A stretch of DNA of 64,000 bases, taken from IMG/VR virus record IMGVR_UViG_3300020596_000011, positions 83,887 to 147,886 of that record; one strand, 5' to 3'. The first letter of the stretch is position 1. The number at the start of each line of letters is the position of its first letter. Source of the stretch: a virus. Position numbers and translations under genes: made by a program. Of the stretch, positions 3,942 to 58,709 are shown in pieces. The notes beneath the pieces are model-generated. The model searched no databases, had not been told where the DNA came from, and saw only the letters and a list, made by a program, of their open reading frames with translations.

Positions 3942-4280
3942 TTACTGAAAAAAAGCTAGCGGATGTGTCCATGAGTATTCCTGTGCCCATTCTCGTGGCG
4001 TTAACGGTCTAGTAGTCCAAGAGAGATTTGAAAACTGCGCACCAAGCAATTCTGGCAAGACTTGGGTGACCATCTGCGTGCGCTCGGTGCTGTGTTTGTG
4101 TGTGAATGCGGTGCTCACAATCGACAATTCGGCAAAGCCATCAGTCAGGCCGTTTGCGCTATGGATTACGATTTTTACAAGAGGGTCGCTCCAGTACGTA
4201 GACAACACCTTTCTAAGATGTTCTTCCAATTGACCTATTACCACTTCTGTTGCCGATACGTCGTTGAAAAGCTCAGTCAT
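3942..4280 (-). CDS. Unknown protein, 112 aa
   Basis: Starts with ATG eight bases inside the preceding gene. The product (MTELFNDVSATEVVIGQLEEHLRKVL...) is of mixed alpha/beta character with no motif that I can place. It is the last gene of the 5.2 to 3.9 kb transcription unit, just before the next promoter. Confidence 0.6.
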   Translation of the reverse strand: MTELFNDVSATEVVIGQLEEHLRKVLSTYWSDPLVKIVIHSANGLTDGFAELSIVSTAFTHKHSTERTQMVTQVLPELLGAQFSNLSWTTRPLTPREWAQEYSWTHPLAFFQ

Positions 4281-4485
4281 TCGACTCCCAGAGTTGTTCC
4301 ATGCGCTCGGTTAATCTTACGACTTCCCGCGCAGTGTCCGTTCTAAATTCTGTAGAAAACCAGTTAGTAGGGGCTTCGTTCAAGAAGCGAAGCAGAGCCG
4401 CACGCTGCCGCGCCGTGTGTAGGTATTCCGAGGGTATGTATTCCGTCAAGATGCCTGATAAACTCGACGGGTAGTGATGCGTCAT
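4273..4485 (-). CDS. Unknown protein, 70 aa
   Basis: ATG start overlaps the stop of the HExxH gene by four bases and the end of this frame overlaps the next gene by eight. The product is mostly helical (HTARQRAALLRFLNEAPTNWF, TAREVVRLTERMEQLW). No recognised domain. Confidence 0.6.
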   Translation of the reverse strand: MTHHYPSSLSGILTEYIPSEYLHTARQRAALLRFLNEAPTNWFSTEFRTDTAREVVRLTERMEQLWESND

Positions 4486-4883
4486 TCTTTCTCCTTCATT
4501 AGGTAGTCTAGATAATCTTCTTGCCCTGCCGCAATATACGCTAGCGTCTCATAAGGAATTGATGCGTAAGCCTGTTCGTGCGACATGCCCTTCATGCGGT
4601 TTTTAATATAGTACGAAAGATAGGAACTGTAAAACTTAAGCCAGCCAATTTCTCGCACCTGCAAGCAGTGAACATTTTCGTGGGCGCGCACCTTGGGGTC
4701 AATCTCTACCTCAAAGAAAAACACGATAGGGTAAAGTACGAACCCGCTCGGTATTTTCTTACTGCTAGTGGGTAGATGTACAAACACCGAGCACGCTTCT
4801 CCTTTTAGTGGAGGCAGAAATTTTAGCTCAACCATTGAAAGGTTAAGCCACAGTAACAACGCTATTAGTATCCACCGCTTCAT
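4482..4883 (-). CDS. Exported or membrane-anchored HExxH protein (putative zinc metallopeptidase)
   Basis: ATG at 4883 is preceded by GGAG; it yields 133 residues starting with a signal/anchor segment (MKRWILIALLLWLNLS). The motif HENVH at residues 68-72, with Gln three residues on, a following helical region and a later PYETLAYIA with a Glu, fits the minimal gluzincin pattern found in a family of small phage and plasmid proteins. Zinc-dependent hydrolysis outside the cytoplasm is inferred from the motif and the N-terminus only; the substrate is unknown. It sits in a string of small unknown genes. Confidence 0.6.
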   Translation of the reverse strand: MKRWILIALLLWLNLSMVELKFLPPLKGEACSVFVHLPTSSKKIPSGFVLYPIVFFFEVEIDPKVRAHENVHCLQVREIGWLKFYSSYLSYYIKNRMKGMSHEQAYASIPYETLAYIAAGQEDYLDYLMKEKE

Positions 4884-36734: not shown

Positions 36735-38942
36735 TTATTTCGCTTCATAGAAATTGTTACCGACAGCAAATCCAAATCTCATGTTTAAGCTCCATTTAAG
36801 CCAAGCGTTGACACGGTCTTGCGCAACTTCTTTGGCCTTTCGGCAATCCTCTAGGTCGACTTTAGGGCATTCTATAATTACTTCATCGTGGATGATGGTC
36901 ACGAACTTAGCATACGGTGCTTCTTCTAGCAAGAATCTGGTAAAGTTCTGAATAATTGGGTTCACAGAAGACTGTATCATCCAGTTGAATGCTTTTCTAG
37001 GTTCGGGGGTACCTCTGTATCCTAGAGGGTTTACAAGAAACTCCTGACGTTCGACGATCTGTTTTTGTTTGTCGGCGTATGCTTTAATGCCCGAGAACAC
37101 GTCCCAGTAGCGATACCAAAATTTCTGCACGTCTTCAAACCGAACATCAAAGCCTGACTCGGTAACTGACTTATGAATCTTTGCAGCGCCCGCTCCATAC
37201 GCAATCGCCAACGCGCATGTCTTGTGGATGTTTCTGATCTTTTTCAATTTTGTTTTGATCACTTCATCGTCAGCCAACCACTGTTGTGCAAACGTCTTAC
37301 CCGACCAGTCCGCCGCGAAAGCTTCGCGAAGAACTGCGGCACCGAATGGCGAAAACGACATGGACATTAGGTACAGATCGCTAATCAGCATGACGTCTTT
37401 TTCGTAGTAAGGTTCTTTACCAATCCCCGTCAAAGAAGCGTGTGTGTACAGCCGGTCTCCCGTGTACACACTGGTAATTGTGGGTTCACAGCCTAGGGCG
37501 TCTGCACTGATCAAAATATTATCTGCACTTGAAGGGAGCAATGCAGACATTAAGCCGGAATCCCTGCGCCCTAGAGCTTGAATATTTGCGCCGCCGCCAC
37601 CTGCGTACCTCCCCGTGACAGTCCCACACAAGCGCAATGTGTGGTGCCAGCGGTCGTCTTGCGTAGATAAGAGTGCAAGTTTAGCGGCTTGTGTTTTAAT
37701 CAAGAGGCGCTTTCCTCTGTTCTGGACAATTTCGCCAGGACGACCCCACTGATGCATGTGAGCGCTTCTAAATGACGGAGAGTTCTTAGGCGTGACCAGA
37801 AGCTCTGCGCCATGTACACGACCTTGTTCAGTTTGAATTATCTTAAACCATTTCAGTTCCGTTGCGTCTTTAACTTTCATGAGTACCTTCCGAGCAAGGT
37901 CAAGTTGATTGACGCACAAGGCTTCCATATGTGTTTTAGACGTGATGTTAAACTCAGGAAGGATCTCTACAATCTTTTTCTTAAACTTAGACTGCTCTTT
38001 GATCTTAAGCGCTTGCCGCACTGCCATAATAGGATCAGCGAATTCTTGAAAAAAGACTTGGTCAATATCTGCTACTTCTTTGTTTACGTCTTTGACGTAT
38101 TGCAATAAAGCCGCGCGATCGACGTTAATCCCAGTTATTTGTGCGTCTACAATTAAATGCGCCATGCTCATAAATAGCTCGTGGTCGGTTTCCCAGTCGT
38201 ACTTCTGTGCAGCGAAACTGTTCGCTATAAACCGCGCAAGCTTAAGCGTGCAGTCAGTGTCACCAACGTTGTACTCCTCAAGCGCCGTATCGTCAGCGAG
38301 ATAGATGTACTTCATAAGATTCTTTTTAGTCATTTTGATTTCCTTGGTGACAAATTTTGTCTCCCAGGTACCGCTAAAAAAAATAGCGTCGTCGTGCTCC
38401 ACGCCGTCGTCGAGCCAGACACGTTCACCATCGTCGTCGATAATTGCTAGGCGTTGGTCTTTTCCATTGTCGTCGGGGGTCCAAGTTTTTTCTGTAAGGG
38501 ATTTGTTAGTCTGGGCAAGAGCTACCTGTTGTTTCAGGTGCTCATAAAATTTTTGCTTGTGCCCGACGAGGTGCGGGAGGATGCGGGCTAGCGAGTCGTC
38601 TAGACCGAAGCCCTCACCCATTTCGTTTGCGTGACCAAAAAGCTGCGAAAGGCGCATGCTGTCGTATTTAAGATTTAAGTTTAGCTCGGGAAATCGGCAC
38701 TTAATAACGAGTAGCTCAAAGCCCACGTTGTGGGCTACAAGTGGAATTTGTGCGTCCGAGAGCATTTTCAAGAAAGCGCGAACTTGATCTTCACCTTTGG
38801 CAAAGTATGTCTGCGTAATATCGTCGTCGGGATCGCCGACAAGCCAGCTTGCTGCTACGGAGAGTACGCGAAAATCGGGCTCCCACGCGTTTAGTCCAGT
38901 CGTTTCGAAGTCTATGCATATTAAATTTGAAAAATTTATCAT
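36735..38942 (-). CDS. Family A DNA polymerase with 3'-5' exonuclease (T7 type)
   Basis: 735 residues. Exonuclease motifs: ICIDFETTG (Asp11, Glu13), VAHNVGFELL and YNVGDTDCTLKL. Polymerase motifs: RYAGGGGANIQALGR, motif A SADALGCEP (Asp with Glu five residues on, like T7 DASGLE), motif B KTCALAIAYGAGAAKI (T7-like YGAG..KI), motif C TIIHDEVIIE. All catalytic acids are present. The replicative polymerase of this phage. It sits in one operon with helicase, deaminase and primase. Confidence 0.93.
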   Translation of the reverse strand: MINFSNLICIDFETTGLNAWEPDFRVLSVAASWLVGDPDDDITQTYFAKGEDQVRAFLKMLSDAQIPLVAHNVGFELLVIKCRFPELNLNLKYDSMRLSQLFGHANEMGEGFGLDDSLARILPHLVGHKQKFYEHLKQQVALAQTNKSLTEKTWTPDDNGKDQRLAIIDDDGERVWLDDGVEHDDAIFFSGTWETKFVTKEIKMTKKNLMKYIYLADDTALEEYNVGDTDCTLKLARFIANSFAAQKYDWETDHELFMSMAHLIVDAQITGINVDRAALLQYVKDVNKEVADIDQVFFQEFADPIMAVRQALKIKEQSKFKKKIVEILPEFNITSKTHMEALCVNQLDLARKVLMKVKDATELKWFKIIQTEQGRVHGAELLVTPKNSPSFRSAHMHQWGRPGEIVQNRGKRLLIKTQAAKLALLSTQDDRWHHTLRLCGTVTGRYAGGGGANIQALGRRDSGLMSALLPSSADNILISADALGCEPTITSVYTGDRLYTHASLTGIGKEPYYEKDVMLISDLYLMSMSFSPFGAAVLREAFAADWSGKTFAQQWLADDEVIKTKLKKIRNIHKTCALAIAYGAGAAKIHKSVTESGFDVRFEDVQKFWYRYWDVFSGIKAYADKQKQIVERQEFLVNPLGYRGTPEPRKAFNWMIQSSVNPIIQNFTRFLLEEAPYAKFVTIIHDEVIIECPKVDLEDCRKAKEVAQDRVNAWLKWSLNMRFGFAVGNNFYEAK

Positions 38943-39689: not shown

Positions 39690-39727
39690 CTAAATACAGT
39701 GTTCGGACGGGATGTCCGAAACTTTAG
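39690..39727 (-). promoter_or_regulatory. Minus-strand promoter, CTAAAGTTT...TAG family (site E)
   Basis: On the minus strand CTAAAGTTT, an inverted repeat CGGAC-ATCCC-GTCCG, AACAC, TGTATT and TAGG, 13 bases before the transglycosylase start. The upstream gp46-like gene ends inside it. Confidence 0.6.
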
Positions 39728-41856
39728 CAAAAAATGACGTCGTCAAATGACGAGTCGTTAACTCCATGTTCTACAAGTAATATTAATTTTGACTGCCCTA
39801 CCACACGCAGATGGTCTAAGATATCATCTCGTAGTTCTGTGTGGCTTCCAGTGAGTGCTTCGTCGAGACAGAGAATAGGGGATGCGAACATGTCAGAAAT
39901 AGCTAACTGCGCGGCTAACAAGCACCTATTTTCGGCGCCACCTGAAAAATCTTCAATAGCCATCTCCAAGCCTTTATGAATAATCTTGAGCCCCATCTTA
40001 GCTCTGCGCTCGTCTTTTTTCGTAAAACTCTCATTTGTAATGAATATGTGTGTACCAGCATCGGGGAAAAAGAGGTCGATATAGTGTTTTAAATTTGTGT
40101 TTATGGCATTCACAATTGCGCTAACAGAAGACATCGTAGACTCGTCGCTGAGTTTTTTGAGTTTCGTAGCCGTTGTCACACTCTTCAGCAGAGAGTTCTC
40201 GCCCTCTACGACTTTGTTTAGGGATTCCTCTAGCAAAAGGTGCGCCTTGAGGGCAGCGCTAAAAGCTTGGTCTAGTGTAATGGCACGCTCTCGCGTTGCT
40301 TTACGAGCCAACCCCTCGGCTTGCTTCTGCTCTAGGTCTTTTAAAAAAGACCTGTGGTCGGCTGAGCGGATGTTCAACGCATGCAAACTCTCTCTTATTA
40401 GGGTTTCATCTGGGAGATCTTGAACCCACTGCGCTGACAGGGTGCGCAGTTGATTGCGCTTAGACGCTAGGTTTTGTTCCAAAAAATGCAGATTGTTAAT
40501 TTCTTGAACAACTACGGTCATTTCGGCATGTACATCTTGCTGTTTTTTAGTCGTGAGTTGTACGAGTTCTGTAAAGTCTGTGTCAGACACGGGGTGCGCT
40601 TTCGCTAAGAGCCCAGTACTCTCCTCAAACATCTGCCTTTGGACGACGCTTGCGGCCCTGTAGCGTTCCCAGTCGAGTACAAAACTAGCAGCCTGTTTCT
40701 CTTCTAGCTCTAAGGTATTTAGTGTCGCCACGAGTGCAGACTTAGCCGTGCCATCGTGTGAATGATGTAGTGTATTCGACGCTAACGTCAGGGGTGCTTG
40801 GCATGCAGGGCACTCATAGATAGACGTCATTGCATGAAGTGTTTGCGCTTTTTCAGCGGCTAACGTGGCAATACGTTGGCGAATCGCAGCAAGGTTAGCG
40901 TCTGCGGAAACAATCCCTTCCCTAGCTTGTTCGAGAGTTGTCGAGAGACCTGATTGAAGGGCTATCTGTAGCTTGTCGCGGGCTTGCTTCTTTAGCTCCT
41001 GCCTGTTGATTTGGTCAGATGCGTCCGCTAAAACGGCAGCCGCCTGTTGAATCTCAGTGGAGAGGCTAAATTTGCGGGCGTCGAGGGCACTTCTTGTAGG
41101 TAGTGTATTCTCTAATGCCGCAATCTCAACTTGCAGGTTGTGAATAAGGGGAGCCAGCGTGCGGCTAGGGTGGTTTAGAAGGGCGGTTTGAGCCTGTATT
41201 GCGGAATCTACTTCGCGTATCTGTTGTCTAGCGTACTCAAACGTGTCACTAGACCACTGGTCGGTGTCCGCAGGTGGAACCGGAGGGTGATCGAGTGTCT
41301 CTAAGTGCGCTTTGCTGCGGGTTACGTTTTCTTGCGCCTGTGCTCGCAAGGACGTCTTGATGGTAAGATTCTGGGTGTACGACGTTAATTTGTCCTGTAT
41401 AACTTTTTTATATTTCTCAGGGTCGTGGGCACCGAAAGCGAGCGTCTGGATAAAGCGGACTTGATCCGCCGCACCTAGCGTAAGGAGTGACCCTCTAAGC
41501 TTCTGCTTGACGTAAGAGGAAGCAGAAAACTGCTCATGGCTCATACCAAGCACCCGCTGTATCTCAGCTTGTCCCACGTCGTTCTCAAGGTGGTCATTCA
41601 CAATTAACCGACCCGGACCTTTAAAACGAGCTATGGAAGCAAGACCAGAAAAACCTGTAAGAATAACAGAGGCTTTAGTTTCACCCAACGGGGCGACCGC
41701 ACGTATGGCTTCATCGCCGTAGAGCGCCCAGTTGATGGCTTGCAGTATTGTGCTCTTACCGGCCTCACTATTCCCTGCGATTCTTACTAACCCAGTCTGG
41801 GGTAATTCTATAGTTTTGTCTTTAAGTCCCTTAAATGCTTTAATCTCTAGTCTCAA
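39724..41856 (-). CDS. SbcC/Rad50-like nuclease subunit (gp46 type)
   Basis: 710 residues. Walker A GNSEAGKS at 28-35, long coiled coils, a zinc hook CPAC near the middle (IYECPACQAPLTL), an ABC signature-like region (DFSGGAENRCLLAAQLAI), Walker B ILCLDEAL and a final LVEHG His switch. Works with the Mre11-like partner encoded immediately upstream in processing DNA ends for recombination. Confidence 0.9.
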   Translation of the reverse strand: MRLEIKAFKGLKDKTIELPQTGLVRIAGNSEAGKSTILQAINWALYGDEAIRAVAPLGETKASVILTGFSGLASIARFKGPGRLIVNDHLENDVGQAEIQRVLGMSHEQFSASSYVKQKLRGSLLTLGAADQVRFIQTLAFGAHDPEKYKKVIQDKLTSYTQNLTIKTSLRAQAQENVTRSKAHLETLDHPPVPPADTDQWSSDTFEYARQQIREVDSAIQAQTALLNHPSRTLAPLIHNLQVEIAALENTLPTRSALDARKFSLSTEIQQAAAVLADASDQINRQELKKQARDKLQIALQSGLSTTLEQAREGIVSADANLAAIRQRIATLAAEKAQTLHAMTSIYECPACQAPLTLASNTLHHSHDGTAKSALVATLNTLELEEKQAASFVLDWERYRAASVVQRQMFEESTGLLAKAHPVSDTDFTELVQLTTKKQQDVHAEMTVVVQEINNLHFLEQNLASKRNQLRTLSAQWVQDLPDETLIRESLHALNIRSADHRSFLKDLEQKQAEGLARKATRERAITLDQAFSAALKAHLLLEESLNKVVEGENSLLKSVTTATKLKKLSDESTMSSVSAIVNAINTNLKHYIDLFFPDAGTHIFITNESFTKKDERRAKMGLKIIHKGLEMAIEDFSGGAENRCLLAAQLAISDMFASPILCLDEALTGSHTELRDDILDHLRVVGQSKLILLVEHGVNDSSFDDVIFC

Positions 41857-44623: not shown

Positions 44624-45301
44624 TCATGCCTCGACTATAGCGAAATGTTTGTTTTGCCAATTTTTAATTTCGTCAGTGGAAAGTTTCTTGAGCCAATTTT
44701 TAGAAGCGTTGTCAAAAAAGAACCCTTCAGCTTTTGCGAAGTCTTTTTGATGAAACGAAACCAAGGCTTTAACCGTCTTTTTTGGCTGTAGAGCATCCTG
44801 TATAACACTGTCGAGGTTCGGTAGAGCGCATAAGATTTGAATCAACAAGCGCACGTCGGCTGCTGCCCTATGGAGTTTTAAAACAGGCAATCCAAGGTCA
44901 ACGGCAATGTGCGAGAGTTTGCTGGCCTTCGTGCCCGTGATTCGAATGTCTTCGCGTGTGCAAAGAAAAGGGCGGTCGATCGGCAAGCCTAGCATCTGTA
45001 GGCGAGGAGCATCAAACTTTACGTTATGGGCGACAAGGGCGTCTGCTTGAGAAGCGTAGTAAGACAGTATACAAAGACCAACGTTGAGCCATTCAGGGCT
45101 AGAGGGGATTTCTTGAAGGGCTGCGTCAGGTATACCGTTGACGTGAAAGGTCGCGTTGAGTTTGTCAGTCTTCACCAAAAAACTAAACTCAGCCAGTACT
45201 TCTTTTGTCGTCGTAGACAAAAGAGCCCCTGCCACTTCAATAACAGGGTCGTCGGCGAGGTCGAGCCCTGTAGTTTCAGTATCTAGTACAAGTAGTTTCA
45301 C
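44624..45301 (-). CDS. DnaQ-like DEDDh 3'-5' exonuclease
   Basis: GTG start overlaps the chaperonin stop (GTGA). 225 residues: LVLDTETTGLD (Asp7, Glu9), VAHNVKFD, and LHRAAADVRLL with the His and last Asp. After residue 170 there is a separate VKALVSFHQKDFAKAEGFFFDNASKNWLKKL domain, known from several exonuclease proteins and of unknown use. Could proofread or trim RNA/DNA; the polymerase already has its own exonuclease. Confidence 0.85.
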   Translation of the reverse strand: MKLLVLDTETTGLDLADDPVIEVAGALLSTTTKEVLAEFSFLVKTDKLNATFHVNGIPDAALQEIPSSPEWLNVGLCILSYYASQADALVAHNVKFDAPRLQMLGLPIDRPFLCTREDIRITGTKASKLSHIAVDLGLPVLKLHRAAADVRLLIQILCALPNLDSVIQDALQPKKTVKALVSFHQKDFAKAEGFFFDNASKNWLKKLSTDEIKNWQNKHFAIVEA

Positions 45302-47928
45302 CCACCACCCCCATGCCGAGCTTGCTCTTGAAAGAGCATCCGAGCTTCATTGATTTTCCCAAGGTCCGCAGTTACGGCTATACATCCGGTAGTGGCGCAC
45401 AAAATCCCAAGTTCCACACCGTTGCGAATTACAGACGTGACCGTCACGGACGAATCTGCTACACCGAGGTCCCGGAAGTCCCCGATAACAACCCCACTTT
45501 CTTCAAAGCGGACAGTTGTCGTACCCGTATCGGCTAGTGCTAGATCAAAAGTTAGCGCAGTTCCGTAATTTTCACATAATTGTAAAAGAACGGATTTAAA
45601 AGCTTCGCTCAAACCAGCCGACATGCCCGATGCCCTTGCAGCGTAGATGTAAGACATGCCTGCGCCAGGGACGACGCCGTTGCGGGAAGCTGCTTGAACG
45701 GCTTGAATAGCATCGTCAACTCGGTCGGCTCTTTCTTGAATGCTTGCAGAGTGCCCGCCACCGACAGAAATTGTAACCAGACCGCCCGTGAGTTCGGCGT
45801 TGCGTGCCGAAATAACATCGGCACCTTGGCGTGTGGGCGCAAAGCTAACAGCTTTTTCGTTCTGCGCAGCTCGCTCGGGAATCGTGTGCTTTGCCGCACG
45901 ACCTGTGAGGATAGTCTTAAAGGGCTGCACCTCAATAGAGGTACAAGTACCTAGGTCGTCGTAGGTGGACGTTCGGTAACTAGCGCCATCTTGCAGGGTG
46001 GCGCACGTGATAGCGGAAATGTCCAAGAGTCTCTGATACTCGACGTTCATTTCCGGGCTTAAAGCGAGTTTCGATAAAAAGATGCGTCCTGTGTGCTTTC
46101 CGTGAGCGAGGTTGCGGTTCTGCACCATTACCTCGTTGGCAAGACCTTCACCGATATCTTTTGCGAAACAGACCAAGTGTTGCTTGAATTGCCCATTGCT
46201 CTGGGCAGCAATACTGTTAACAGCTTGTGTGATCTGCTCCATGCTCTCAAGGTTCCCATTGTAGATAAAGACTGCGGGACCTTGAAGAACAAAAGAGTCG
46301 TTCTCGGCAGATTTTTCTGACACTGAAATAGCTAAGCTCTTGTGGTACTCGTACCCACGACCTGCACAGTAACCGTTTTGGCGTACAATTTTGTAGAGTT
46401 CATTCTGCAAAGCATCTTTTGCGATAGTGACCGTCCCATAGGCACCTACGTTGTCTAGGGCTTCTAGCGCAGCGGTGGCGATGTCGGAATCGCCATTAGA
46501 AGAAGTCATAGCTACGTGGTGTAAAAGGCTCGCATCTCGGATAGCAAGTTCCTCTACCTTGAGAATGGCTGCTTCTGCTTCTCGTTTAAATTGACGGGCG
46601 AGAGCTTGAGGATTTTTAGAAGAACTGTTGAGTATAGCGCTGGATACTGCCGCCGCAAGCACGAGAGTGGACGTCGTGTTGTGGGTGACAATGAAATTGT
46701 CTGTGATGTAAAGATTGTCAGGGTTACTGACTTTTATACACATCATAGGGGTTGTAACCCCTGTGGCTGTAATTTTGTCTAGCCTATTTCCGTACTTAAA
46801 GTTTTCTAAATGTGTGACGCTCCAGATCGGCGGCGGGAAGTAGAGGTTACCTTCTTCGTGTTTCTGTAGCGACATCTTTACAGGTTTACCTAAACTGAGG
46901 CAAAGGTCGGTAAAGTCTTGAGCCAGCTCTTTACTGACGCTGCTAAACGCAACCACGCTGCTGTTAGTCGTGTAAGCGTCAGCGTCTGTTAAACCTTGAA
47001 ATAATTTTTCACGATGATTCGCAGTTGTGTAGAGGTATGATTTAGGGATAAATTGTGCGCCTAGCAATCCTATAGACGCAAGAATTTGTTGCATGGTCTT
47101 ACCGTCGGTCGAACGTCCCTGTATGCTTACGCGAAATGAAGAATCACTTACTACGTAGGTAGAAGAGAGGTTAAACCCTTCGGGAAGAACCAACTTAGCG
47201 ATAATGTGCTCTTTTGGCTTACTCAAAGAAATTTCAACAGATCCCGTACCACGAAGTGAGACATCGCCAAGTAAGACACCCACGAGGTATGGGTCGAGAG
47301 GCATCTCTGCCTCATTGTTGCAGAATTGGACGTGAGTGAGAGGCGAGTAGTATCGTTTTTGGGTCTCTCCTTCGTTGTTAGCAATTATATAATCTTTGGC
47401 TAAATCACCCGTTGTTTTTGTTTCTAATCGAGGGCCGGTAGTACCCGCGTTTGTAACAGTCCAGAGGTGGTCGGCGCAGCATTCCACCTCGCGGTTGTCA
47501 CTGAACAGCAGTTTGTAAATCTCTCGCTCGCCTTTAGGGAACACCCCTAAGACGGTTTGAATGGTTCCGTTTGTCCCACAGATTCCCATGCCTACTGTGA
47601 CGTCCCGCATCTCAATGAAGCCTTTAGGTGTCAGCACTTTAGAGTACAGAGGCTGAGGGCCGTCGCCTGCATCTAATACTGTCTTGGCAGAAGACTGGTT
47701 GCAGAAGTAATGAATGGCGTGCTCTATCGGGTCGTTGAATTCTAATGCCTTTAAGACAGTAATACCGTCCTTGGTGTAAGTGGCACAAAAATCACCGAGC
47801 GGGTCACGCTTTTCAATAATTGCGGGTTTGCCGGAAGGTCCGAGGGTGGACCCCACCGCTTGAGCGATCTTCGAGAGAGCTTCTACGGCTTTGCGTGAAG
47901 CGTCCTGTATTTCTAAAGTTTTTGTCAT
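45298..47928 (-). CDS. groEL: GroEL-type chaperonin interrupted by an intein
   Basis: ATG at 47928 with GAGG upstream (the frame is open 20 codons further). 876 residues, of which 327 are an intein, leaving 549 for the chaperonin, the normal GroEL length. Extein residues include STLGPSGKPAIIE, TYTKDGITVLKALE and DAGDG, then after the intein TTSTLVLAAA, restoring DAGDGTTT, the ATP/Mg-binding motif. Later landmarks: apical and equatorial segments, GVVPGAGMSYIYAA. It ends HGGGG instead of the usual GGM tail. No GroES gene is visible, as for other phage chaperonins that work alone. Folds phage or host proteins. Confidence 0.93.
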   Translation of the reverse strand: MTKTLEIQDASRKAVEALSKIAQAVGSTLGPSGKPAIIEKRDPLGDFCATYTKDGITVLKALEFNDPIEHAIHYFCNQSSAKTVLDAGDGPQPLYSKVLTPKGFIEMRDVTVGMGICGTNGTIQTVLGVFPKGEREIYKLLFSDNREVECCADHLWTVTNAGTTGPRLETKTTGDLAKDYIIANNEGETQKRYYSPLTHVQFCNNEAEMPLDPYLVGVLLGDVSLRGTGSVEISLSKPKEHIIAKLVLPEGFNLSSTYVVSDSSFRVSIQGRSTDGKTMQQILASIGLLGAQFIPKSYLYTTANHREKLFQGLTDADAYTTNSSVVAFSSVSKELAQDFTDLCLSLGKPVKMSLQKHEEGNLYFPPPIWSVTHLENFKYGNRLDKITATGVTTPMMCIKVSNPDNLYITDNFIVTHNTTSTLVLAAAVSSAILNSSSKNPQALARQFKREAEAAILKVEELAIRDASLLHHVAMTSSNGDSDIATAALEALDNVGAYGTVTIAKDALQNELYKIVRQNGYCAGRGYEYHKSLAISVSEKSAENDSFVLQGPAVFIYNGNLESMEQITQAVNSIAAQSNGQFKQHLVCFAKDIGEGLANEVMVQNRNLAHGKHTGRIFLSKLALSPEMNVEYQRLLDISAITCATLQDGASYRTSTYDDLGTCTSIEVQPFKTILTGRAAKHTIPERAAQNEKAVSFAPTRQGADVISARNAELTGGLVTISVGGGHSASIQERADRVDDAIQAVQAASRNGVVPGAGMSYIYAARASGMSAGLSEAFKSVLLQLCENYGTALTFDLALADTGTTTVRFEESGVVIGDFRDLGVADSSVTVTSVIRNGVELGILCATTGCIAVTADLGKINEARMLFQEQARHGGGG
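46678..47658 (-). other. Class 3 intein with LAGLIDADG endonuclease in the chaperonin
   Basis: 327 residues between DAGDG and TTSTL. It begins with Pro (PQPLYSKVLTPKGFIEM), so it lacks the usual Cys/Ser nucleophile. Block B reads CCADHLWTVT with Trp66 two residues after the His; block F reads MMCIKVSNPDNLYI with Cys307; the end is VTHN and the first extein residue is Thr. These are the Trp-Cys-Thr triplet of class 3 inteins. Endonuclease motifs: YLVGVLLGDVSL (124-135) and LFQGLTDADAY (219-229). Splicing would be needed for chaperonin activity, since the ATP site is split. Confidence 0.9.
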
Positions 47929-48593
47929 GGCAAATCCTCGTATTTTTTGAGTAGTGTAGCGGCTTCGTCCATGCTCTTGGCGAAACACTCTACCTGTACT
48001 TTAAATGTTTTGGCAAAAGATAACAGGTTGACGTCAGGTGGGTTACCCCAGACTAATTTACGGTGGCGTAACGGATGCACAAGGCAGAGCGTTAAAAGCC
48101 CGAGGTCCCAAGCAAACTGCCCATAGGAAGTTTTGGCAACAGGTTCTTTCACGTCGTGAGAATACGGTGTTAGATCCCATACGTTCCCTGCGTTGGTTGA
48201 GTCTTCTCGGTACCATGAGGTTTGGTCCCAGGTCGGAGGCGTCGTGCCTTTGGAAAGAATGACTGCGGCCTCGCCTAGTTTGGATAGTGTGCCTCTTTTC
48301 GAGGTCGTCTGGTAGTGCATAAACACGACGTCACCAAACGTAAGCTGCGGGTACGCCGAAAGGTCTGCGGTATGCGACATCGCTTTTACAAGGTCCATCT
48401 TGCTATGTCTAAAGGTCAGTAAGGTGACACTATCACTAGAGGTGCCTTGGTTCAAACGAGTGAGGAGGGTTTTTGCTTCTTCTTGTTTGACGGGCATGTT
48501 GAACACGTAGACGTCGGCACTCGGCATAGGGGCTTCCCACACACTGTCAGTGCTGACGACTTGAATTGAGATAAGATTGTCTTCAGACTTCAT
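47925..48593 (-). CDS. Unknown protein, weakly like a degenerate DNA methyltransferase
   Basis: ATG at 48593 lies just inside the ssb end; its stop overlaps the chaperonin start (ATGA). 222 residues. The order YVFNMPV, TFGDVVFMHYQ, LGEAAVILSKG, NAGNVWDLTP and a C-terminal LVWGNPPDVNLLSFAKTF is reminiscent of beta-class N4/N6 methyltransferases (GxVWDxP), but the (D/N/S)PPY and FxGxG motifs are absent or displaced. Without them activity is doubtful. Treat as hypothetical. Confidence 0.5.
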   Translation of the reverse strand: MKSEDNLISIQVVSTDSVWEAPMPSADVYVFNMPVKQEEAKTLLTRLNQGTSSDSVTLLTFRHSKMDLVKAMSHTADLSAYPQLTFGDVVFMHYQTTSKRGTLSKLGEAAVILSKGTTPPTWDQTSWYREDSTNAGNVWDLTPYSHDVKEPVAKTSYGQFAWDLGLLTLCLVHPLRHRKLVWGNPPDVNLLSFAKTFKVQVECFAKSMDEAATLLKKYEDLP

Positions 48594-56843: not shown

Positions 56844-58709
56844 ATGTCCACCGAGGTTGTCGCTGTGTCCTTTCCAAATCTTCTTGCCGAGATTGCTTTT
56901 TACCGTACTTACTCCGCAGTCAAGCCTAATGGCTATAAAGAATCCTGGGACGATGTCGTCCTTAGATATCAGAATTGCCTGATCAAACGCTATTCACACC
57001 TAGAGCAAGATATTAAGGACGCTTGCGAATTTGTTAAACTGTCCAAGATTCTTCCCTCGATGCGAATGCTCCAGTTTGCCGGAACTGGGATTGAGCGAGA
57101 AAATGCTAGGGCTTTTAACTGCTCAGCTACCAACATTACTAGTTTTCGTACTATTGCTGAGAACATGTACGTTCTACTCTGCGGCGCGGGTAATGGATTT
57201 AGCGTCCAACAAGAACACATTTCGCACTTACCCGTTATTTCTGAAGGCTACGCCCAAACTTTTGTTATCACGGACGACAAAGCAGGCTGGTGTGACTCTG
57301 TTATTGCTCTTCTTGAGAACCCTCAAGTCACGTTCAATTACGACCTCGTGCGCCCCTCAGGAGCACGAATTAGCACTGGAGGTACCGCAAGCGGTCCTGA
57401 GCCCTTGCGCACTGCGCATGAGGCGGTACGAGCGATTCTTCAAAACGCCACAAACCGGCAGCTCTTTGATATAGAAGTAGCAGACGTAGAGTGCTTGTTC
57501 AGCGACGCTGTAATCGTCGGTGGCGTGCGCCGTAGCGCCCGCATCTGTATTTTCGATAACGAATCTAAAGCAATGTGCGAATATAAATCCGGTACTTGGT
57601 GGCAAAACCACCCTTACAGGGCGCGCACTAACATTTCGGCAATGCTAAAACGAGACGAAGTAACCCAAGACCAGTTCAACGAAGTCCTCGACGCTTGCTT
57701 TAATAGTATGTCTGGTGAACCCGGAGTTTTTTGGTCAAACAACAAATCAATGATCACCAATCCGTGTGTCGAGATTGCGTTAAACAACAAACAGTTTTGC
57801 AATCTTACGACCGTCAACATAGCTTCCTGCAAAGATTCTTCAGACTTTTACGAGCGGGCTCTGAAGGCCACTTTCTTGGGGACCCTCCAAGCAGGATTTA
57901 CCGATTTTGCGTACCTTTCCCCCGAATGGAAAGAAATTACAGACGCTGAGGCTCTCTTAGGCGTCAGTATGACAGGTATCTGTGACAACTGGCCGCTTAT
58001 CGTAAGTTTAGCAGAATCAGGGTTTATGAGTAAGACTGTAGCAGCTATGCGGGTAACTAACGCACGTGTAGCCGCACTAATCGGTATCCGACCCGCAGCA
58101 CGTATCACGTGTGTTAAACCCGAAGGTACCACCTCGTCGGTCTTAGGTACTTCAAGTGGAGCCAACGCAACATTTAGCCCCTATTTCATTCGAACTGTAA
58201 GAGTTGATAAAGCCAACCCCGTAGGTGCGCATTTAGCTCGTGTCCTTAGTGGGACCCCCTTTATCGAAGAAGACGTTACAAAATCCTCGATGTGGGTTGT
58301 AAGCGTCCCGATGAAAAGTCCCGCCGTCATTACTGAACAGAATCAAAAAGCCTTAGACGCTCTTGAACGCGTCAAGCTGCTTCACACCTTTTGGATACGC
58401 CCAGGTCATGTCTACGGGGACAATACGCATAACGTGTCTTGTACAATTAACTACAGGGACCACGAAAAAGAAGAGGTTAAAGCGTGGATGTGGGAGAACC
58501 GTGAGTCTTACGCAGGGATCGCACTCTTTCCTCTGTATGATTCAACGTACGCCCAAGCGCCGTATCAGTTGAGTACAGAAGACAAGTACAACGAGCTTAT
58601 CAAGTGCTTGCCTCCGATAGACCTCGCCTCGGTGTTCTACGGACTAGACGCCGAAGACACTCGCAAAGAGATTCTGGCTTGCGCCGGTGGAAGTTGCGAA
58701 ATCACCTAA
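56844..58709 (+). CDS. nrdJ: Adenosylcobalamin-dependent (class II) ribonucleotide reductase
   Basis: 621 residues, close to the monomeric ribonucleoside-triphosphate reductase type. Landmarks: FNCSATNI and NPCVEIALNNKQFCNLTTVN (active-site Cys pair region), CVKPEGTTSSVLGTSSG (phosphate/substrate loop), HNVSCTINYRDHE, and the C-terminal CAGGSC redox pair. Class II needs no oxygen and uses a B12 radical. No Shine-Dalgarno is visible before ATG 56844; GTAAAATG overlaps the previous stop. Makes dNTPs for phage replication. Confidence 0.9.
   Translation: MSTEVVAVSFPNLLAEIAFYRTYSAVKPNGYKESWDDVVLRYQNCLIKRYSHLEQDIKDACEFVKLSKILPSMRMLQFAGTGIERENARAFNCSATNITSFRTIAENMYVLLCGAGNGFSVQQEHISHLPVISEGYAQTFVITDDKAGWCDSVIALLENPQVTFNYDLVRPSGARISTGGTASGPEPLRTAHEAVRAILQNATNRQLFDIEVADVECLFSDAVIVGGVRRSARICIFDNESKAMCEYKSGTWWQNHPYRARTNISAMLKRDEVTQDQFNEVLDACFNSMSGEPGVFWSNNKSMITNPCVEIALNNKQFCNLTTVNIASCKDSSDFYERALKATFLGTLQAGFTDFAYLSPEWKEITDAEALLGVSMTGICDNWPLIVSLAESGFMSKTVAAMRVTNARVAALIGIRPAARITCVKPEGTTSSVLGTSSGANATFSPYFIRTVRVDKANPVGAHLARVLSGTPFIEEDVTKSSMWVVSVPMKSPAVITEQNQKALDALERVKLLHTFWIRPGHVYGDNTHNVSCTINYRDHEKEEVKAWMWENRESYAGIALFPLYDSTYAQAPYQLSTEDKYNELIKCLPPIDLASVFYGLDAEDTRKEILACAGGSCEIT

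Follow-up and report, generated by a model that had tools for sequence, protein, structure and literature searches.

A phage GroEL-type gene in this 64,000-nucleotide stretch of viral DNA (IMG/VR record IMGVR_UViG_3300020596_000011; here called the window) appears to carry an in-frame class 3 intein with a LAGLIDADG homing endonuclease, to be spliced to a 549-amino-acid chaperonin, and to represent a mobile allele. We place the probability of this reading at about 93%. In window coordinates, the precursor is laid out as follows.

45298..47928, minus strand: chaperonin-intein precursor gene, 876 amino acids plus stop; Pfam PF00118, NCBIfam GroEL
47659..47928, minus strand: N-extein, 90 amino acids, ending in ...TVLDAGDG, with TLGP.G, TKDG and GDG invariant in a 16-precursor alignment
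46678..47658, minus strand: predicted class 3 intein, 327 amino acids, PQPLYSK...IVTHN, assigned by sequence, profile and fold comparisons
45301..46677, minus strand: C-extein, 459 amino acids, beginning TTSTLVLAAAV and holding D739 (GroEL D398) and D825 (GroEL D495)
Intein-free DNA at the insertion site: GCAGGCGACGGC followed directly by ACGACGTCC, with the insertion point between them

The reading frame at 45298-47988 on the minus strand is open throughout its 896 codons, with a mechanical start at GTG 47988. The ATG at 47928, which lies 20 codons inside this frame with GAGG ahead of it, is the likely precursor start and was preferred because the 20 codons upstream overlap the preceding gene. 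Direct reading of the border DNA gave GCA GGC GAC GGC followed by CCT CAG CCT at the N-terminal junction and ACC CAC AAC followed by ACG ACG TCC at the C-terminal junction, and the insert therefore occupies exactly 47658..46678. When the flanks are joined they form AGDG-TTSTLVLA, the GroEL phosphate-binding loop, in which the intein splits GDG from TTS; the E. coli counterpart is AGDGTTTATVLA. An earlier sequence-only reading had placed a 327-residue insertion at 46678-47658 of a phage GroEL, and the border DNA and the GroEL matches of the flanks bear this out, as does the predicted ligated product, whose 90 + 459 residues counted from ATG 47928 give the 549 it had proposed. No second intein was found in the window's virus record.

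The published class 3 signature consists of Trp at B:12, Cys at F:4 and Thr at G:5 (PMC3196547); PMC7891396, which catalogues 1,701 class 3 inteins, gives the same signature. The class 3 catalytic triad comprises the Cys, a block B His and the G:5 Thr (PMC7664689). The corresponding window residues are listed with their invariance among 30 nonredundant chaperonin-site inteins.

47656..47658, minus strand: Pro1 (A:1), a non-nucleophile; Pro in 29/30, Cys in locus L101
47467..47469, minus strand: His64, catalytic (block B:10); invariant 30/30
47461..47463, minus strand: Trp66 (block B:12), W of WCT, in the motif HLW; invariant 30/30, in register with the Trp of 6rix and 6riz
46738..46740, minus strand: Cys307 (block F:4), C of WCT, in MMCIKV, predicted first nucleophile; invariant 30/30, in register with the Cys of 6rix and 6riz
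46684..46686, minus strand: Thr325 (block G:5), T of WCT as defined in PMC3196547; invariant 30/30
46678..46683, minus strand: His326-Asn327 (block G:6-7), C-terminal cleavage pair; invariant 30/30
46675..46677, minus strand: +1 Thr of the C-extein (G:8), second acceptor nucleophile and also first Thr of the GDGTT loop

Pro as first residue, the HLW Trp and the MMCIKV Cys had been recognized from the sequence, and all three (P1, W66 and C307) are present, with the Trp and Cys at class 3 positions in the block B/F alignment. The proposed Trp-Cys-Thr triplet exists as W66, C307 and T325, but its Thr had been assigned to the +1 residue, a choice excluded by the published definition (Thr G:5); both residues are Thr here. 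Four residues before the catalytic His lies a further Cys, Cys60 (47479-47481), which is invariant in the 30 chaperonin inteins, has an equivalent in gp41-1, and is a possible redox partner of Cys307.

Comparisons with known structures gave the same class. In a phmmer search of the PDB, gp41-1 was the best match (1e-8), followed by the class 3 inteins of mycobacterial DnaB, whose Trp and Cys align in register, and a profile built from 53 family members returned the same matches plus PI-SceI and other intein endonucleases. An AlphaFold2 model of the insert (pLDDT 92.9, pTM 0.90) matched PI-SceI across the full length in Foldseek (1.9e-14), along with archaeal intein endonucleases. The nuclease part of the model matched I-DmoI, and the class 3 DnaB inteins 6rix and 6bs8 matched with target TM values of 0.76 to 0.80, indicating a HINT fold. 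The Pfam Intein_splicing profile left the window copy unmatched and matched only 2 of 14 relatives, and Hint_2 or Hom_end_hint matched some relatives. Signature, sequence and profile matches, and modeled fold thus agree with the class first proposed, and by every feature that can be checked from sequence and predicted fold the insert is a class 3 intein. The sequence and fold matches, along with recurrence at this site in 44 other loci, put the assignment well outside what chance would give.

The precursor flanks matched Pfam Cpn60_TCP1 (1.2e-16) and NCBIfam GroEL (9.7e-42), the latter under the strict NCBIfam cut-offs because the window chaperonin is divergent. The ATP-site residues TKDG, GDG, D739 and D825 were invariant across 16 aligned precursors, including the Asp two residues ahead of the intein.

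47662..47664, minus strand: Asp89 of GDG in the chaperonin, invariant in 16 precursors, the equivalent of E. coli GroEL D87

Since the insert breaks the loop that holds this Asp and the next Thr, the anatomy suggests that the unspliced precursor could not use ATP and would be without normal ATPase function. A fold model of the precursor matched GroEL (target TM 0.77) with modest confidence (pLDDT 75), and junction geometry was not read from it because the junction residues have pLDDT <50. Searches for Cpn10/GroES gave no match in the full 147,886-base record, none in the 160-kb record that represents this virus too, and none in 13 of the 15 records searched. Since GroES was not found in the record, we infer, rather than observe, chaperonin function for the window GroEL. 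Elsewhere in the window, PHROGs matches identified DNA polymerase (36735-38942), ribonucleotide reductase (56844-58709) and SbcC-like (39724-41856) genes; there are no tRNA genes in the window, and the gene set is that of a large phage.

Class 3 splicing begins when Cys F:4 attacks at the N-terminal junction; the chain is then handed to the +1 residue, Asn cyclizes, and the exteins are joined (PMC5222942). Both the chemistry and the occurrence of splicing are taken here from known class 3 inteins. On this model, the gene would be translated as a single 876-amino-acid precursor, the intein would fold, and Cys307, aided by His64 and Thr325, would attack the Gly90-Pro91 bond to form a branched thioester at block F. 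The chain would then be transferred to the +1 Thr, Asn327 would cyclize, and the 549-amino-acid chaperonin would be released with an intact GDGTTS ATP loop. By analogy with these inteins, splicing of the window intein is very likely.

Two scans of IMG/VR and one scan of 84,980 genomes provided the 139 loci analyzed; the query was the chaperonin intein, and other insertion sites are therefore partly sampled. Beyond the window, 44 of the 139 loci had the intein at GDG/T of a chaperonin (a slash marks the insertion point), nearly all of them on uncultivated viral contigs, which excludes the insert as a one-off. One of these loci (L002) comes from a different assembly of the same virus as the window, and distinct chaperonin-site sequences, window included, number 33. 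Walker A motifs of helicases, AAA proteins and other P-loop proteins, cut at GK/T or GK/S, accounted for 80 loci, and other sites, including PhoH-like LPG/T, for the remaining 15. In trees restricted to the chaperonin group plus its closest relatives, the chaperonin inteins formed a single group (SH-aLRT 100 in the 85-intein tree; 100/99 with bootstrap in the 38-intein tree). Related WCT inteins outside Walker A (L021-L023, L024 and L027) were found at terminase-like E/S and PhoH-like LPG/T sites, and those at the PhoH site carry Pro1, as the chaperonin group does.

The sole hit at the chaperonin site in the 84,980 genomes was L031, a short contig of a metagenome-assembled genome (MAG), with a GroES-like gene and open reading frames resembling terminase subunits by eye as neighbors. 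This was the only candidate for a cellular GroEL host, and because of the terminase-like neighbors the contig most likely belongs to a phage and was binned into the MAG; within these genomes, a cellular host was rejected. On these data, the chaperonin insertion site is confined to uncultivated phages. A comparison with 50,697 catalogued phage records gave no intein match above ~32% identity, and the hosts in annotated records of the 60 best matches were helicases, terminases, DarB-like proteins and PhoH, with no chaperonin among them. Full-text searches of open-access papers turned up no report of a GroEL or thermosome intein, although prior notice is possible. Both searches favor the initial impression that a chaperonin host is unusual. 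What is new is the host protein and the allele family; the splicing chemistry was already known.

Empty sites were sought with an alignment of one chaperonin clade, which worked as a search query where an alignment of all C-exteins was too diverged; single-protein extein scans with the window and with L110 each matched only themselves. The GDGTT loop was intact and empty in 79 of 80 related viral chaperonin loci, and the presence and absence of the intein on the chaperonin tree needs at least 5 changes. For example, the DNA of L011, which has the intein, and L147, which lacks it, is colinear, 87.6% identical upstream and 91.7% identical downstream, and differs at the site by exactly 1,017 bp, at GAT GGT/ACA. 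No co-conversion tract was evident in this pair. The chaperonin-site intein is a mobile allele family. Copies with decayed nucleases and retained splicing residues, described below, fit the expected homing cycle, in which an element invades, its nuclease decays and splicing is kept.

In the simplest view, the intein lineage would have entered the GDG/T site of viral chaperonins once, and many phage lineages would since have acquired it by spread, lost it or inherited it, with spread probably occurring by homing into intein-free alleles during coinfection. Flanking DNA is partly alike at chaperonin sites (GG.GAtGG./AC.AC) and Walker A sites (GG.AAa/AC), and the chaperonin insertion may plausibly have arisen when the nuclease jumped there from a P-loop gene.

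Median identity was 49% for inteins versus 29% for chaperonins, and the window and L081 share 60% versus 24%; the chaperonin nearest to the window's is that of L110 (about 40%). Extein identity below intein identity was not accepted as proof of horizontal transfer, because exteins may evolve faster and AU tests allow co-descent in the window's clade; faster extein evolution explains part of the gap. Intein and chaperonin identities were positively correlated (rho 0.29, Mantel p 0.004), and the extein clade of the window, L110 and L081 was not rejected (p-AU 0.44). Intein and chaperonin of the window, L110 and L081 may share one line of descent, and because co-descent was not rejected, horizontal homing into the window lineage is not demonstrated. 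The L003/L087 grouping was incongruent on the extein side (p-AU 3e-17), and the extein grouping of L082 and L087 was not rejected on the intein side (p 0.10).

Placement of the insert in the ATP loop of a chaperone allows for a conditional intein, in which redox- or stress-gated splicing through Cys307 and the invariant Cys60 (30/30) would time the assembly of an ATP-competent phage chaperonin. Oxidation of the block F Cys is known to inhibit the class 3 intein Msm DnaBi1 reversibly (PMC6195587), which would suit such gating. However, Cys60 has equivalents in gp41-1 and in Walker A relatives and so is not special to chaperonins, and the sporadic presence of an insert that most relatives lack fits a selfish element, leaving conditional splicing very improbable. 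The original proposal that splicing switches the chaperonin on holds in the trivial sense that the insert lies in the ATP loop, but finds no support as regulation.

Another alternative to a splicing mobile intein starts from the nuclease, for which both LAGLIDADG motifs proposed from the sequence were found with their acids.

47260..47286, minus strand: first LAGLIDADG motif, LVGVLLGDV, acid D132 present, the usual G133 replaced by Val
46975..47004, minus strand: second LAGLIDADG motif, LFQGLTDADA, acid D227 present, the usual G228 replaced by Ala

Pfam LAGLIDADG_3 fell on the second motif region at 5.2e-4, just under the cut-off. The window nuclease departs from the family consensus at conserved places (G133V, K202Q, G228A and a 4-amino-acid gap) and may therefore be failing; with the acids kept and adjacent conserved residues altered, its activity is uncertain. 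Relatives show further decay. A nuclease acid has been lost in L014, L087 and L101; L110 (positions 4001-4741 of that locus) is a 247-amino-acid mini-intein at the same site with much of the nuclease deleted; and in L104 and L105 (about 4001-4225) the chaperonin-intein frame is broken ~74 amino acids into the intein, by decay or assembly error. Such changes, a very divergent window chaperonin, and a GroES partner not found in the record could point to a decaying intein that cleaves only or does not splice, in a phage that relies on host GroEL. Yet every splicing residue is intact in the window copy, the extein retains its ATPase residues, and L014, L087 and L101 keep W, C, T, H and N. L110, which has the nearest chaperonin, lost its nuclease and kept all splicing residues, as expected if splicing is needed, and we regard a decayed, nonsplicing insert as very improbable. 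In the L005/L006 pair, dN/dS was 0.04 in splicing and nuclease parts alike, a rough value with dS near saturation, and in this one pair the intein is under purifying selection.

A Hint domain with a non-splicing role (bacterial intein-like or hedgehog-type autoprocessing) or an ordinary domain insertion would accord with the Hint_2 or Hom_end_hint matches in some relatives but is scarcely credible beside a C-terminal THN, +1 Thr and WCT set that are those of cis-splicing class 3 inteins, a nuclease within the insert, and a precise insertion, with exact empty alleles, between two residues of the most conserved loop.

The insert resembles the class 3 inteins of mycobacterial DnaB (Msm DnaBi1, 6bs8; Mch DnaB-1, 6rix/6riy) in its WCT residues in register, THN end, HINT fold, absence of an N-terminal nucleophile, and position in an ATP phosphate-binding loop directly before a hydroxyl residue. 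Those are mini-inteins in a P-loop helicase (GK/S), whereas the window intein has a LAGLIDADG nuclease, Pro1, and a chaperonin GDG/T loop, a non-P-loop ATP site. The class 3-type inteins in Walker A motifs of phage TerL, helicases and other P-loop NTPases (PMC5050341) share the architecture and a +1 Thr or Ser, with ~28-33% identity over the full length, including those of Vibrio, Pseudomonas and Serratia phage helicases; they differ in host protein and stand apart from the chaperonin inteins, a group in which Pro1 is nearly invariant. The classic P-loop insertion point lies between Lys and Thr (PMC5050341), and the GDG/T site is its functional analogue in an unrelated fold. The class 1 split intein gp41-1 and its engineered WCT variant (6qaz, 6riz) have the same THN end and a class 3-type block B, and gp41-1 is the best sequence match for the N-terminal half of the window intein; gp41-1 differs in using Cys1, in being split and in lacking a nuclease. 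Phage-encoded chaperonins, such as that of phage EL (6tmt series) and the GroEL/GroES of Flavobacterium immuto phage, share the chaperonin family and ATP residues, and neither of these two has an intein. The immuto phage GroEL, ~26% identical to the window extein where aligned, carries the same loop, GDGTT, without a break.

Most known inteins sit in enzymes of replication, packaging or metabolism, and those of class 3 occur mostly in P-loop NTPases. The chaperonin GDG/T allele family extends this range of hosts to a protein-folding machine whose ATP site is unrelated. Its full, nuclease-decayed and mini forms, together with empty alleles, make up a natural set for study, and the Pro1 class 3 scaffold could serve in protein engineering. 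Blocking splicing should block the chaperonin and would therefore provide a handle on phage chaperonin function; if splicing were conditional, the intein would act after translation to time the phage's folding machine. The family also suggests that this intein lineage thrives in nucleotide phosphate-binding loops generally, before a hydroxyl residue, beyond Walker A.
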